64,000 bases of DNA from Hahella sp. KA22 (GTDB lineage Bacteria; Pseudomonadota; Gammaproteobacteria; Pseudomonadales; Oleiphilaceae): assembly GCF_004135205.1 (NCBI RefSeq), contig NZ_CP035490.1, forward strand, positions 5,819,501 through 5,883,500. The letters run 5' to 3'. Of this stretch, positions 50,622 through 56,739 are shown piece by piece (within the stretch, counting starts at the first letter, position 1; each line of letters begins with the position of its first letter). A program made the position numbers and the translations under genes. The notes under the pieces are model-generated. The model ran no database searches. It saw nothing but the letters and a program-made list of their open reading frames with translations, and had not been told where the DNA came from.

Positions 50622-51080
50622 TTACCAGTCCCTTCCCCCGTGAAACCCGCGTTCGCCGTGTTTTTCTATAAACGCCACCAGCGTGGCTTTCTGTTCGGCA
50701 GTCAGGGTGCTGTGCAGCCGTGCAAGCGTTGGCAGTACGCTGGCGACCGCTTCGTTCATTTGCTGTTGATGCGCTTCGAATGCCGTCAGGATTTTTGCTT
50801 CATCCAGTTGCTCACTGTTGATCTGCGCGATCAGCAGCTCATGGGCGCCTTCCCGCTCTGATTTCATTTTTTGTTTCGCCGCCTGGATCTGCGTAAACAG
50901 TTCATCCAGGATGACCTGTTGCTCCGCATTGAGTTCGAGTTCATCGCTGACCCACTCCTTCGCGTGCTCCCAGCGTTTTTCAGGATCATAGCGACAGGCC
51001 ATCGCTCCTAAAGACATCGCGGCGACCAGTATCCACAACAGCGGTTTTCTGACGTATTTACCCATTTTCGTAGCGTTCAT
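50622..51080 (-). CDS. Spy/CpxP-like periplasmic protein
   Basis: About 152 residues with a signal segment ending in MSLGAMAC, so it may be a lipoprotein (lipobox-like AMAC). Two LTxxQ-like motifs, ELNAEQQ and TLTAEQK, bracket long helices, as in Spy/CpxP and zinc-resistance-associated proteins. The ATG at 51080 has GAGG 9 nt upstream. It is divergent from a CpxR/CpxA-like pair, exactly as cpxP is in E. coli. Likely role: periplasmic stress sensing or chaperoning. The C-terminus has a His/Gly-rich end (EKHGERGFHGGRDW) that might bind metal. Confidence 0.8.
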   Translation of the reverse strand: MNATKMGKYVRKPLLWILVAAMSLGAMACRYDPEKRWEHAKEWVSDELELNAEQQVILDELFTQIQAAKQKMKSEREGAHELLIAQINSEQLDEAKILTAFEAHQQQMNEAVASVLPTLARLHSTLTAEQKATLVAFIEKHGERGFHGGRDW

Positions 51081-51315
51081 AGCGCGTTTCCTCGTGATGT
51101 TTAACATGATGATCAACGTGCTCAGTGTAGGATTACGCTGGCGGGTATTCTTTTCACCGCGGTATCGGCTTGTTTCACTTTGTAACGATCTATCCTAATG
51201 ATAAAAAAGGGATTTTCTGACAGAGAGACAAATCCTTGAAACTTTGCCGCTACAGCGCCGGTTACAGTCGCACTATCATGTAATTCTGATTTCCCTTTTC
51301 CCGCTACGAATGCTT

Positions 51316-51996
51316 ATGAACTTGTTGCTGATAGATGACGATAATGATCTGGCGCGCCTGTTAAACCGCTACTTTCAACGTTTTGGCTGGGAGCTTCGAC
51401 ATGCTTCCGCGCCGTCAATCGCCTACGCGCAGTTAAAGCAAAGCCAGCCTGACGCGATTATTCTGGACGTCATGTTGCCGGAGGAAGATGGATTCGCCGT
51501 ATGTCGCAAGCTTCGCCATGACTACACGACGCCAATCATCATGCTGACGGCCCGCGGTGAAGTGACGGATCGCATCGTTGGCTTGGAGTTAGGCGCCGAT
51601 GATTATCTGCCAAAGCCCTTCGAACCACGGGAGCTTGCTGCGCGCATCCAGAGCATTACCCGTCGTCACGTCTCGGTGGAAAAGCCCTCACCCCTGATGC
51701 AGTTCCGCGATCTGGAGATTAACCCGACGACACAGGAGGCGCTTGTGGCTGGACGCCCGCTTACACTGACCACGTCCGAATTCCGCCTGCTTCAGTTATT
51801 CGCCTCGGCTCCCGGTAAAGTGTTTTCCCGCGACGAGATTATGAACAGCCTCAAAGGTACAGAAGTAGAGCTTTTCTCACGCGCGATCGATATTACGGTC
51901 AGCCGCCTGCGGCAAAAAATGAAGACAAAAAGCAAAAGGGAGTTCATAAAGACTGTCTGGGGAGCCGGCTACCGATTTGTCGGAGAAGCGCTGTAA
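51316..51996 (+). CDS. OmpR/PhoB-type response regulator, CpxR-like
   Basis: 226 residues: a receiver domain with phospho-acceptor Asp in AIILDVMLPEEDG and acidic pair LLIDDDND, switch Lys in DDYLPKPFEP, and a C-terminal winged helix (LTTSEFRLLQLFASAPGKVFSRDEI to KTVWGAGYRFVGE). The frame opens at 51244; the ATG at 51316 begins at the receiver core. It overlaps the kinase gene by one base (TAATG). Context with the Spy-like gene favours a CpxR-like role; orthology was not tested. Confidence 0.92.
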   Translation: MNLLLIDDDNDLARLLNRYFQRFGWELRHASAPSIAYAQLKQSQPDAIILDVMLPEEDGFAVCRKLRHDYTTPIIMLTARGEVTDRIVGLELGADDYLPKPFEPRELAARIQSITRRHVSVEKPSPLMQFRDLEINPTTQEALVAGRPLTLTTSEFRLLQLFASAPGKVFSRDEIMNSLKGTEVELFSRAIDITVSRLRQKMKTKSKREFIKTVWGAGYRFVGEAL

Positions 51997-53300
51997 TGCT
52001 CAAACACAAACGAAAGCGTCGTCACTCTCTGTCAGTCAGGCTGATTTTGATATTTTTGGCCACCGCCTTTGCAGTCCTTGTGCTCATCGCGGCGGCTTTT
52101 CAGAATATTTCGCAGGAACGCGCCCATGTTTTCTGGAAAGATATTTTTTCAGATTACTTTTACTCCCTCAGCAAAGACATTCAGCCCCCTTACGACTCGG
52201 CGTTCATAGCGTCCATAGAGAGCCGCACCCATACTCAAGTCAGCGTCCAGAATACCGATGGAGCTTGGGCGCACGAAACACCTCCGTTCGCCGGTGCAGA
52301 TCTTGAGTTCCGCGACGCTGGCGATGGCCGTATCGAATACACTCATTGGAGACGCTACTTTGTCCTGCGCATTCCGCGCCAAGACGCCACCATCTATTTC
52401 TACGCCAGACCATTTGAAGGCGAGAACGGCCTGACTTTCACCGGCATCGCCCTGCTGCTGTCGATCTTACTGGTGATCTTTCTCTGCTTTCTGAGCATTA
52501 AACGCTTACTCAAGCCTATCGGCTGGCTGACCCAGGCCGCGCAAAAGGTGGCTGGCGGCGACTTCCAGCAACGCATTCCCACTCTGAGGCAGGATGAGCT
52601 GGGACAGTTGAGCGACACCTTCAACACCATGTCCGCGCAGATTGAGTCCATGCTTAACGCCAAACGCCAGTTGTTGCTGGCTATCAGCCACGAGCTCAGA
52701 TCGCCTCTCACCCGAATGCGCGTCGCTGGCGAAATGATCGACGACGAAGCGCAACGCGATGAACTGGTGCGTGAAATACATCATATGGACAGACTGATCA
52801 CTGAACTGCTGGAATGCGAAAGACTGGAAACAGGCCATCACGCGCTCCAGTTGCACGACATCGACGCCGCCAGACTGTTATGCGAGCTGATCGATGAGCG
52901 CTTCGCCAGACAGCGCGCCTTGATCAGACTGGATTGCTCCGCAAACAACCAGGCGCACCTGGACCCTGTTCGCTTCAAACTGCTGGCGGCCAACCTGCTA
53001 GATAACGCGTTGAAGCATGGGGAGGGCAAGAATGTTGTCGCTAGTTGGCGACAACTACCGGATTACGGCGAATTGATTGTCGAAGACAAAGGACAAGGCG
53101 TCGAGTCGGAGCATTTAGCAGCGCTGACAGATCCCTTCTATCGCGGAGACCAATCACGCGCTCACACTGGCGGCCTTGGACTAGGCCTCTATCTATGTCG
53201 ACAGATCGCCAAAGCGCATGGCGGCGAACTGCGCATCGACAGTGAGAAAGGCAAGGGAACCCGCGTCACCGTGAGGTTCCCGTTAAACAGCGATCGTTAG
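51996..53300 (+). CDS. sensor histidine kinase, CpxA-like
   Basis: A 434-residue HAMP-containing kinase with two membrane helices (LIFLATAFAVLVLIAAAF and GIALLLSILLVIFLCFLSI) around a periplasmic loop of about 120 residues. Next come HAMP, the phospho-acceptor His in AISHELRSPLTRMR, and the ATPase motifs NLLDNALKHG, VEDKGQGVE and GGLGLGLYLC. It is coupled to the response regulator. The small periplasmic domain and the divergent CpxP/Spy-like gene fit an envelope-stress sensor. Confidence 0.93.
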   Translation: MLKHKRKRRHSLSVRLILIFLATAFAVLVLIAAAFQNISQERAHVFWKDIFSDYFYSLSKDIQPPYDSAFIASIESRTHTQVSVQNTDGAWAHETPPFAGADLEFRDAGDGRIEYTHWRRYFVLRIPRQDATIYFYARPFEGENGLTFTGIALLLSILLVIFLCFLSIKRLLKPIGWLTQAAQKVAGGDFQQRIPTLRQDELGQLSDTFNTMSAQIESMLNAKRQLLLAISHELRSPLTRMRVAGEMIDDEAQRDELVREIHHMDRLITELLECERLETGHHALQLHDIDAARLLCELIDERFARQRALIRLDCSANNQAHLDPVRFKLLAANLLDNALKHGEGKNVVASWRQLPDYGELIVEDKGQGVESEHLAALTDPFYRGDQSRAHTGGLGLGLYLCRQIAKAHGGELRIDSEKGKGTRVTVRFPLNSDR

Positions 53301-53301
53301 A

Positions 53302-54312
53302 TTACAGGCTGGGACATTTAGGAATCGCACAGGAGGCGGCAGTCTTGCGCGCCAGAATATTCGCCACATCCTTCGATGTTGTGGCGATAGTGGCGTCGTC
53401 AGGGGCCAGCGCACTGGCGCATTTCGCCGCTTCTGTCGCAACCTCGCACCCTTGCTGGGCAAGCGCATAAGACAGATTATTCCAGCCTTCCGCCTTCTGC
53501 GGTTGCAGCGCCACCAACTGTCGAAACGCAGCCTCCGCCACAGCGTAATCTTTGGCGGCATAGGCGAGATTGCCAAATCCCAGTTGCAAAATAACAGAGT
53601 CCGGCCAACGCTTCACCGCCGCGGCGTAAGTGGCGCGGGCCTGCTGCGGATGTCCGGTATTCGCTAAGTCCTGCGCCGCTTTAGCGACAGGAAAGGGCTC
53701 TCCTGTGGCGGGCAAATCTCCGGGAGGTAAAATGACCCGCGCCCAATAGCCGCCATTTTTCCAGGTGCGCTCAAAGGTGCGCAGCAACAGCGTTTCACGT
53801 TCAGTGACGCCTGAACGCAGAATGATTTCCGCGCTGCCGAAGTCATACCCTACCACTACCGCGAAATGCCAGACCGGACTCCAGCTCAACCCCAGGTTCT
53901 GAAACACCAAAACAGGGTGTCCCGCAGCCACTTCGCGCAGGATATTCTCCATTTCAGGCTGCAATGGATAGGCGAGTCGCCCATAGCTGCGGGCCGCCGC
54001 CACCATCTCCACCTGGAAACTCCCCTGCCGGTCCGGCACATACACCAAACCAACCAGATCGTCGGGAACAACAGGCTGTTCGGGCGCTGTCAGCACTGTC
54101 GCCAACGCCGCAGGGCCACACTGATATTCAGACTGAGGATAAAAAGGCGTTGCGGTAAGTTCCGCCTGAAAGGGGATATCGCTGGGCGGTTCCGCCATCA
54201 GCGCCGCCGACTGCGGTAAAGAACCACAGCCAGAGAGCGCCGCGACGATTACAACTATAATCGCCGCGGCCTTTGCGTGTATTTGCTTAAACAATGTCCG
54301 AACTACAAACAA
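53302..54312 (-). CDS. PA2778-family cysteine peptidase, C39-like lipoprotein with TPR
   Basis: A 336-residue lipoprotein (lipobox ALSGC, Cys29). The papain-like C39 domain has nucleophile Cys65 in QSEYQCGPAALATVL, His149 in SPVWHFAVVVGYD and Asp157. The C-terminal 130 residues are TPR-like helices (ATYAAAVKRWPDSVILQLGFGNLAY and AEAAFRQLVALQPQKAEGWNN). It is stop-to-stop close to the convergent kinase gene. PA2779 lies 37 bp upstream and is its constant neighbour in Pseudomonas. The start is a TTG. The role is probably proteolytic maturation of a periplasmic substrate. Confidence 0.9.
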   Translation of the reverse strand: MFVVRTLFKQIHAKAAAIIVVIVAALSGCGSLPQSAALMAEPPSDIPFQAELTATPFYPQSEYQCGPAALATVLTAPEQPVVPDDLVGLVYVPDRQGSFQVEMVAAARSYGRLAYPLQPEMENILREVAAGHPVLVFQNLGLSWSPVWHFAVVVGYDFGSAEIILRSGVTERETLLLRTFERTWKNGGYWARVILPPGDLPATGEPFPVAKAAQDLANTGHPQQARATYAAAVKRWPDSVILQLGFGNLAYAAKDYAVAEAAFRQLVALQPQKAEGWNNLSYALAQQGCEVATEAAKCASALAPDDATIATTSKDVANILARKTAASCAIPKCPSL

Positions 54313-54348
54313 CGTTTATCGCCAAACCGCATAGAAGCTCAGCGCACC

Positions 54349-54756
54349 TTAACGGCCGATGGGCTTGATAACCGGGAAAATATTGGTGGCGCCCAGTAGA
54401 TCCAGCACGATCAATATCACAAAAATAACCAGAATCACGCCCAAAGCAGAGCTGGCGCCCGCTGGCATTTCATTGATTTGCTTATTGAATTCCGCGATTT
54501 CATCCGCAGTCATGTTCGCCACGCGAGCTTCAACGTCTTCCTGGCTTACGCCCAGGCTCAGCAACACTTCTTTCGCCTCATCAGAGCCAGTAATGCGCAT
54601 AATCTGCTCGCGATCATAGTTTTGCTGCTCAACCTGAATCTGAGTATCAGTTGAGACCATCGCCGCACGCACCGCAGCACTCTGCAAGCTCAATACGAAC
54701 ATGCTCATGCTCAGCAATACAGCGGTAATTTGCTTAATCAGGCGTTTGGATTTCAT
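54349..54756 (-). CDS. PA2779-family protein, possible peptidase substrate
   Basis: 135 residues: an N-terminal signal segment (ITAVLLSMSMFVLSLQSAAVRA), then an acidic helical stretch (GSDEAKEVLLSLGVSQEDVEARVANM and TADEIAEFNKQINEMPAGA), and then a C-terminal hydrophobic helix (LGVILVIFVILIVLDLLGA). The ATG at 54756 has GAGGA 6 nt upstream. The acidic helix ending in AGA before a hydrophobic tail recalls a double-glycine-type leader, and a C39-like peptidase gene is next to it. That reading is inference; the pairing itself is a known gene neighbourhood. Confidence 0.85.
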   Translation of the reverse strand: MKSKRLIKQITAVLLSMSMFVLSLQSAAVRAAMVSTDTQIQVEQQNYDREQIMRITGSDEAKEVLLSLGVSQEDVEARVANMTADEIAEFNKQINEMPAGASSALGVILVIFVILIVLDLLGATNIFPVIKPIGR

Positions 54757-54918
54757 AGTCATTCCTCATTTCTTAAGTAAGAGATTCGTTGGAGTTATTA
54801 CTGCGACATCGCGTCGCGTTGACGAAAGAAACAGAATTCTAAGTGTCGCAACGGAATTACGAAAGTGCAAACGCCCTGCTGCGAGATATTTATTCACAAC
54901 AGGGCGCTTACATTATTT

Positions 54919-54981: not shown

Positions 54982-55491
54982 TTAGAGGCTCGCGCCCTGT
55001 GGAACGATTTCCACGCGACGATTCATCTGACGGCCTTGCTCATTTGAGTTTTCAGCCAGCGGTTGCTCTTCGCCGTGAGGAACCACTACGAAATCAACCT
55101 GTCCGGAAACCAGATTGCGCAATGCCTGTACGGTGCTGTTGGCGCGATCAGCGGACAGCTTGCGGTTGTAGTCTGCGGAACCTGTGTCGTCTGCGTGACC
55201 GTGTATTTCAACGCGGTTGTAGGCGCCTTCCTGGATGTAGCTCGCCCACTGCTGCAGGTCGCCTTGCTCGCCAGGACCAATCTTGGCGGAGTCAAAAGCA
55301 AATTCAATATTCGCGCTTGGCATTGGCGCGGCTTCCACTACTGGCTCTGGAGCCGGCTCAACCACAGGCTCTGGCTGGGCTGGTTCAATCACCACCGGCT
55401 CTTCAACTACAGGCTCCGGCTGGCTGGACGCACACGCGGACAGACCAATCACAGCAGCCGCCAACAAACTGAATTTAGACAGGTTTTTCAT
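54982..55491 (-). CDS. OmpA-family lipoprotein
   Basis: 169 residues: lipobox LSAC, a Pro/Glu/Val-rich repeated linker (EPVVE and EPAQPEPVVEPAPEP), and a C-terminal OmpA peptidoglycan-binding domain with EFAFDSAKIGPGE, EIHGHADDTGSADYNRKLS and NRRVEIV. It is Pal-like in outline. RBS GAGGAA precedes the ATG. It likely tethers the outer membrane to peptidoglycan. It is one of five adjacent minus-strand envelope genes. Confidence 0.92.
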   Translation of the reverse strand: MKNLSKFSLLAAAVIGLSACASSQPEPVVEEPVVIEPAQPEPVVEPAPEPVVEAAPMPSANIEFAFDSAKIGPGEQGDLQQWASYIQEGAYNRVEIHGHADDTGSADYNRKLSADRANSTVQALRNLVSGQVDFVVVPHGEEQPLAENSNEQGRQMNRRVEIVPQGASL

Positions 55492-55509
55492 GTTTTTTCC
55501 TCATTTCTA

Positions 55510-56001
55510 CTATCTAATTGCGGGGCAACCATTCCTTAGGCGGCTCCCTATCTTTGGGCGCCCGGTTAAATCACCAAGCGGTTTCTGTAATTCTCGTCCA
55601 CCAGTCCCTCTCCTCATCCTGAACTCTGTATGGGGCGTTATCCCCTCATCACGAGCCGGCTCAAAAGAGGGATCGGCTTCCTGGCGTTCTTCACAAGTCA
55701 GCAGTCGATTATCCACCCGGGACACTCCCTCGACTGAAAGCGCAACTTGCTCCGCCAGCACTTTTTCTATCGCGGTGTCGACATCGCCTTCCAATACCGC
55801 TCTGTCGCGAATCACCGTCACCTGGATTGCGAAGGCGCGCAATGCCGGGTTCAATAAATAGCGGGTTTGAATCACCCCTTCCTTCCAGCCTTCGGCGAAG
55901 GGGCTGCGTCCGTTGTCATTGGCTTTGGCGACTATCGTCGCAGTGGTAAGCGCCACCAGGACGAACATCTTTAGCCACTGCGTAACCGTTCTCGAACACA
56001 T
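55510..56001 (-). CDS. BON-domain periplasmic protein
   Basis: 163 residues with a signal peptide (MFVLVALTTATIVAKA). A BON-like core runs from ALRAFAIQVTVIRDRAVLEGDV to LSVEGVSRVDNRLL, as in OsmY-type proteins. The C-terminal 50 residues are polar and unstructured-looking. RBS GGGAGAA precedes the ATG. BON domains bind membranes or other envelope proteins; a stress role is inferred. It lies 18 bp upstream of the OmpA gene and is probably cotranscribed. Confidence 0.8.
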   Translation of the reverse strand: MCSRTVTQWLKMFVLVALTTATIVAKANDNGRSPFAEGWKEGVIQTRYLLNPALRAFAIQVTVIRDRAVLEGDVDTAIEKVLAEQVALSVEGVSRVDNRLLTCEERQEADPSFEPARDEGITPHTEFRMRRGTGGRELQKPLGDLTGRPKIGSRLRNGCPAIR

Positions 56002-56089
56002 ATTGCTTCTCCCTTACAGCCAACCCGACGGCCCCTCCCGGGCTCGTTAGCCTGTTCAGCTAAATAACTCTTTAGCACTACATTTAGCG

Positions 56090-56392
56090 CTACGAACTGA
56101 TCTCTGGCGTGGCGTCAGGCTTTACTGACGCCGACTTGTTATGCGCCGAAGACATAAAGTCCGCATACTCAACCAGGGAGATATCTCCGCTCCGATCCAT
56201 ATCGAACATCTCAAAAGCATCCATCAGATCCTGTCGATTCCGCGCCTCAAATCGGGTGATCAAGGCGTCTGCATCCTTGTCCATCTCCACGAATCCTGGA
56301 ATGGTGATGTCGAACTGATTATCGACTGTCGCCGCCTGCGCTCCGCTAACTGCAGCGCACAGCGCCAGAATTATGGTCAGCAGAGATTTCAT
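56090..56392 (-). CDS. EF-hand periplasmic protein
   Basis: About 100 residues from the ATG at 56392, which has GAGGAG 7 nt upstream (the longer frame to 56437 is rejected). A signal peptide (LLTIILALCAAVSGAQA) is followed by two EF-hand-like loops, DKDADALITRFE and DMDRSGDISLVE. The second is canonical. The role is unknown. It is the third Ca2+-binding-type envelope protein of the window, counting the propeller and the EF-hand lipoprotein. Confidence 0.82.
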   Translation of the reverse strand: MKSLLTIILALCAAVSGAQAATVDNQFDITIPGFVEMDKDADALITRFEARNRQDLMDAFEMFDMDRSGDISLVEYADFMSSAHNKSASVKPDATPEISS

Positions 56393-56739
56393 GATGCGGC
56401 TCCTCATAAGGTCGTGGACTAATAAAGTCATGGACAAGTTTCAGCAAATGGATGAACGACTTGGTTATCGCCAGTCCGATTAACAATACAAGAACACTAA
56501 CAATTTTCGATCCATAAAAAACTTAACCATTTAAAATCAAACAGTTAAAAACATTTTCATTTGTTAACGCTTTTTCCTCAGGCTTGTAAACTGTTGCCTA
56601 ACGGACACAGCCCATTTTGCGACAAACCCTATAATTCCATATATTTCAATAAGTTAATGTGTTGCTTTTTTGCAACTCTAGGAATGAAGAAGAAAACTCG
56701 GTATGGTTGCGAAAACTTTCCGGATTGCAAAAACGACCA

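Follow-up and report, generated by a model that had tools for sequence, protein, structure and literature searches.

PA2778 and PA2779 of Hahella sp. KA22 as a candidate periplasmic protease-substrate pair

The protein families PA2778 (PA2778 family cysteine peptidase, NF033920) and PA2779 (NF033919, DUF6627) bear names that carry no function, and none was found for either protein in the literature searched, where both are mentioned only incidentally, in connection with the BswR locus, in a promoter list and in a SNP table. A PA2779-family gene of P. stutzeri was chosen among candidate strong constitutive promoters (PMC10155442). Clear members of both families are encoded next to each other in a stretch of 64,000 nucleotides from Hahella sp. 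KA22 (contig NZ_CP035490.1, positions 5,819,501 to 5,883,500; hereafter the window). An earlier note on this DNA had read the two genes as a possible protease with a built-in substrate, in which a C39-like lipoprotein peptidase would free a small hydrophobic peptide from PA2779 in the periplasm. A periplasmic C39 peptidase as such is not new, because FapD, which is Sec-exported and encoded in the Fap amyloid operon of Pseudomonas, is already one; Fap secretion depends on its catalytic Cys (PMC5557850). The question raised by this locus is whether PA2779 could be the substrate of PA2778 and, if so, where it would be cut and which half would be the product.

Gene layout and pairing across genomes

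Both open reading frames lie on the minus strand where they had been placed before (Table 1). PA2779 is numbered here two residues higher than in the earlier note, which began at the second ATG (54756), so that its residues 100/101 correspond to 102/103. PA2778 combines a lipoprotein signal with a C39-like peptidase domain and C-terminal TPR repeats (NF033920 347.2, PF13529 36.6 and TPR_16 44.7 bits; curated cut-off for NF033920, 150), and PA2779 scores 127 and 123.7 bits against its two family models, above their curated cut-offs of 40 and 27. A PDB sequence search with the whole of PA2778 was swamped by TPR matches, and the AF2 models, built from 2-3 sequences, are of low confidence (pLDDT 54 and 57). 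In a scan of genome contigs for close relatives only Hahella sp. HN01 came up, with a PA2779 that is 99% identical.

Table 1. Features of the PA2778-PA2779 locus, with coordinates in the window
Feature	Coordinates	Strand	Remarks
PA2778 gene	53302..54312	minus	TTG start, 336 aa; NCBIfam NF033920 347 bits
TPR repeats, possible substrate docking	53401..53679	minus	TPR_16, TPR_14
C39-like peptidase domain	53713..54162	minus	NF033920 51-304, PF13529 55-160; profile matches 6mpz (LahT), 3k8u (ComA)
Asp157 (H+8), third residue of the earlier triad	53842..53844	minus	D in 81/99; otherwise R, E, N, A, Q, S
His149, presumed catalytic His	53866..53868	minus	99/99 paired copies
Asn139, near-invariant	53896..53898	minus	98/99
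Cys65, presumed nucleophile	54118..54120	minus	99/99 paired copies
Gln60, presumed oxyanion Gln	54133..54135	minus	41/41; aligns with Gln before Cys in 3k8u
Lipobox Cys29 (LSGC)	54226..54228	minus	Cys29 41/41; residue +2 is Gly
PA2779 gene, candidate substrate	54349..54762	minus	137 aa; NF033919 127 bits, PF20332 (DUF6627) 123.7 bits
C-terminal tail DLLGATNIFPVIKPIGR	54352..54402	minus	D121, T126, F129 conserved where tail present; tail absent in 20/121 short members
Hydrophobic helix	54388..54444	minus	Best 19-mer from residue 107, Kyte-Doolittle 3.05; helix in low-confidence AF2 model
MPAGA (99-103), putative site of a cut behind G102 or A103	54454..54468	minus	P100 110, A101 114, G102 118 of 121
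Fixed-length helical segment, residues 67-102, ending at P-A-G	54457..54564	minus	36 residues in 121/121, zero indels
Signal peptide, likely cut after Ala33 (between AVRA and AM)	54664..54762	minus	From sequence; AxA-type site recurs among relatives

The PA2778 gene converges with that of a HAMP histidine kinase (51996-53300, plus strand), the 3' ends lying 1 bp apart; with a response regulator (51244-51996, plus strand) and a divergent LTXXQ/Spy-like protein (50622-51116, minus strand) the kinase forms a trio of CpxPRA-like arrangement. Upstream of PA2779 (54982-56437, minus strand) an OmpA-family lipoprotein, a BON-domain protein and an EF-hand protein are encoded. Clustering of the neighbourhoods across loci revealed no conserved third gene beside the pair, and there is therefore no exporter common to the loci. 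Plasmids yielded zero matches to the pair and viral contigs a single partial match to PA2778.

The pairing itself, named as known in the earlier note, is strict. In three samples, which overlap and consist of related genomes so that p-values computed from their counts overstate independence, PA2779 was found in 94 of the 294 genomes of the order sample, 93 of which also contain full-length PA2778 (in the one exception, G466, the locus lies at a contig end); both full-length PA2778 and PA2779 occur in 121 of the 198 genomes of the family sample (pairing 121/121; the number for full-length PA2778 is that of the 146 genomes that gave a match, less the 25 in which the short form alone was found); and 40 of 40 genomes of the phylum sample with PA2779 above the cut-off carry PA2778 as well. 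Full-length PA2778 without PA2779 was not encountered in the order sample of 294 genomes. The genes of the 99 pairs that were fetched are without exception adjacent and on the same strand, PA2779 coming first, and the pair is widespread among the sampled Pseudomonadota. Any obligate partner would account for pairing and adjacency, and the pairing alone would also suit a chaperone, an adaptor or an inhibitor.

Localisation and active site of PA2778

Both proteins carry signals for periplasmic targeting, in agreement with the earlier prediction: the lipobox with Cys29 in PA2778 and an AxA-type signal-peptide site in PA2779. The standard lipobox pattern was recovered in 89 of 99 PA2778 copies, residue +2 never being Asp among these 89, and most of those printed among the other 10 have variant lipoboxes. 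Since residue +2 is Gly, sorting to the outer membrane is expected, and PA2778 is probably an outer-membrane lipoprotein that faces the periplasm.

The proposed catalytic triad Cys65-His149-Asp157 stands in part. All three residues are present in the window and Cys65 and His149 are retained in 99 of 99 paired copies (a count that includes L130, a copy with a displaced start that was read separately), but Asp157 occurs in 81 of 99 and is not the canonical Asp of C39 peptidases. The latter lies 16 residues past the His in the C39 domains of exporters (His101 and Asp117 in LahT; PMC6363468), whereas positions H+14 to H+18 are devoid of D, E and N in 90 of 99 PA2778 copies, and likewise in that of the window. 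The Gln-Cys-His arrangement of the C39 domains of AMS/PCAT exporters such as LahT and ComA aligns with Gln60, Cys65 and His149; PA2778 differs from these domains in its architecture (lipoprotein, C39 and TPR instead of a fusion to an ABC exporter), in the Asp at His+16, which most members lack, and in its candidate site, which is A-G and not GG, GA or GS (PMC6363468). Judged from the alignments, the active site of PA2778 consists of a conserved Cys-His with Gln60 and Asn139, the latter nearly invariant, and of a third residue that varies. Two points count against PA2778 as the processing enzyme of PA2779: most members lack the canonical catalytic Asp, and the candidate cleavage site is not a canonical C39 site.

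With FapD, a Sec-targeted C39 peptidase outside of an ABC exporter that is encoded together with candidate substrates and whose Cys is essential (PMC5557850), PA2778 shares an export signal (the lipobox) and a conserved catalytic Cys (99/99). It differs from FapD in being a lipoprotein with TPR and a single dedicated neighbour, and an outer-membrane secretion pore such as that of the Fap operon is not conserved at the PA2778-PA2779 loci.

TPR-less paralogues of PA2778 that have no PA2779 adjoining occur in the family sample (L093-L098, L181-L200), and Cys65 is lost in 26 of 26 of them, which has to be read as one suggestive contrast and not as 26 independent observations, since a single loss is compatible with the tree; His149 is lost in most. 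These paralogues without Cys65 are, by their sequences, likely pseudoenzymes. The loss of Cys65, and mostly of His149 and the TPR, in paralogues without an adjacent PA2779 supports PA2779 as a substrate of the intact enzyme. Many independent catalytic losses among the TPR-less paralogues were also considered, and rejected, as the tree permits one origin. A distant TPR and C39 protein with swapped domain order, in which Cys and His are kept, was found at L099:4116-7765; beside it are encoded a caspase-domain protein and an exported protein of 296 aa whose similarity to PA2779 is weak, and no PA2779-family member adjoins it.

A conserved Ala-Gly before the hydrophobic helix of PA2779

The acidic helical stretch that was said to end in MPAGA directly before a hydrophobic helix is indeed present, residues 34-102 forming an acidic domain with a net charge of -9 and the helix reaching a Kyte-Doolittle value of 3.05. 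Among 121 diverse relatives, R80 is found in all and E88 in 119, and length variation starts immediately past Gly102, at the end of the fixed-length segment. An alignment of homologues had been named beforehand as a check that could refute the idea, and in it the small-residue pair before the helix is kept, at frequencies (Ala101 114/121, Gly102 118/121) that place the site beyond chance. The conserved pair, expected to be GA or GG, is actually A-G, because the residue past Gly102 varies (G 63, A 23, E 14, S 11, Q 10) while Ala101 and Gly102 stay. Leaders cut by C39 peptidases have hydrophobic residues at -4, -7 and -12, followed by GG, GA or GS (PMC6363468). PA2779 has GA in the window and GG, GA or GS in 94 of 121 relatives, with E or Q past Gly102 in 24 of 121, and the three hydrophobic positions are found together in 18 of 121 for a cut after Gly102 and in 0 of 121 for a cut one residue later. 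The rule as a whole thus fails in either register, and the site, as read from sequence, is not a canonical double-glycine leader.

The best reading, to which we assign a probability of roughly 0.55, is that of a protease and its dedicated substrate, with the conserved A-G as the site; it builds on the observed pairing and adjacency, on the retention of Cys65 and His149, on the near-invariant Ala-Gly and on the fixed spacing up to it. After export of PA2779 via Sec and removal of its signal peptide, the C39 groove of PA2778, perhaps also its TPR, would bind the fixed-length helical segment. Cys65-His149 would then cut in a short loop, either behind Ala101-Gly102 or behind the residue that comes next, and the acidic helical domain would part from the hydrophobic segment at the C-terminus. 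LapG, which acts on LapA, is likewise a periplasmic cysteine protease that cuts beside small residues; protease family and substrate differ from PA2778 and PA2779, and this parallel serves as a lead only.

Alternatively, PA2779 could stay uncut as a membrane-anchored adaptor, chaperone or inhibitor of PA2778, whose substrate would then be a different one, with P-A-G as a hinge between the helix and a membrane helix. Pairing and adjacency are compatible with such a partner, and P-A-G falls into a predicted loop between helices in the low-confidence AF2 model; yet Q or E can take the place of Pro100, whereas Ala101 and Gly102 persist, and spacing is fixed up to Gly102 and free beyond. That Pro100 is kept less well than Ala101 speaks against a mere helix breaker and is more in line with the subsites of an enzyme than with a simple hinge. 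An uncut PA2779 is rather unlikely in our estimate.

The two halves of PA2779

If PA2779 is processed, either half, the helical domain or the C-terminal peptide, may be the active product, at about even odds. The release of a hydrophobic peptide, with the helical domain as its leader, was the direction taken by the earlier note and is possible as one of two; each direction on its own is improbable to a similar degree, their probabilities being shares of that given to processing and not additions to it. A peptide product accords with the conserved residues of the tail and with two cysteines of mature PA2779, 124 and 134, which occur together in 25 members, are both absent in 73 and are never found singly (0 cases), the pair having changed at least four times on the tree. 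Such an all-or-none pair suggests a disulfide-closed loop; a disulfide would place the tail in an oxidising compartment and in this way favours an exported peptide. Against a peptide product, the short members without a tail still keep the site, and neither an exporter nor any other gene is conserved nearby.

In the opposite direction of processing, the hydrophobic helix would be a C-terminal anchor or sorting signal, PA2778 would free or transfer the helical domain in a sortase-like manner, and orphan short paralogues of PA2779 would be further targets in trans. An anchor-like role of the helix is favoured by the 20 of 121 members that stop right past it (e.g. ...PAGGNISSTDFIIILLVIILVAIVL), orphan paralogues being among them. 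The orphans (L201-L216, L220) end at the hydrophobic helix and retain PAGG-like sites. They are located away from PA2778, and each genome in which one was seen has a full-length pair as well; three of their loci (L201, L211, L216) share a common neighbourhood of apparently housekeeping genes. Conserved D121, T126 and F129 and the paired cysteines would nevertheless be odd in a discarded anchor, and the basic C-terminal cluster of a sorting signal is lacking, the tail having a median net charge of -1 and most short members ending without a basic residue.

The candidate bond is precise and conserved, which makes the pair directly testable. Unlikely, though conceivable from the sequences, is a chromosomal periplasmic processing system of new layout, in which an outer-membrane C39-like lipoprotein would cleave the helix-A-G site of a Sec substrate dedicated to it and would act in trans on dispersed short paralogues made up of the same recognition helix, PAGG and terminal hydrophobic helix. 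If confirmed, PA2778 and PA2779 would represent a second periplasmic C39 system, here with a defined substrate, as opposed to FapD, the target of which is described as unresolved (PMC5557850).
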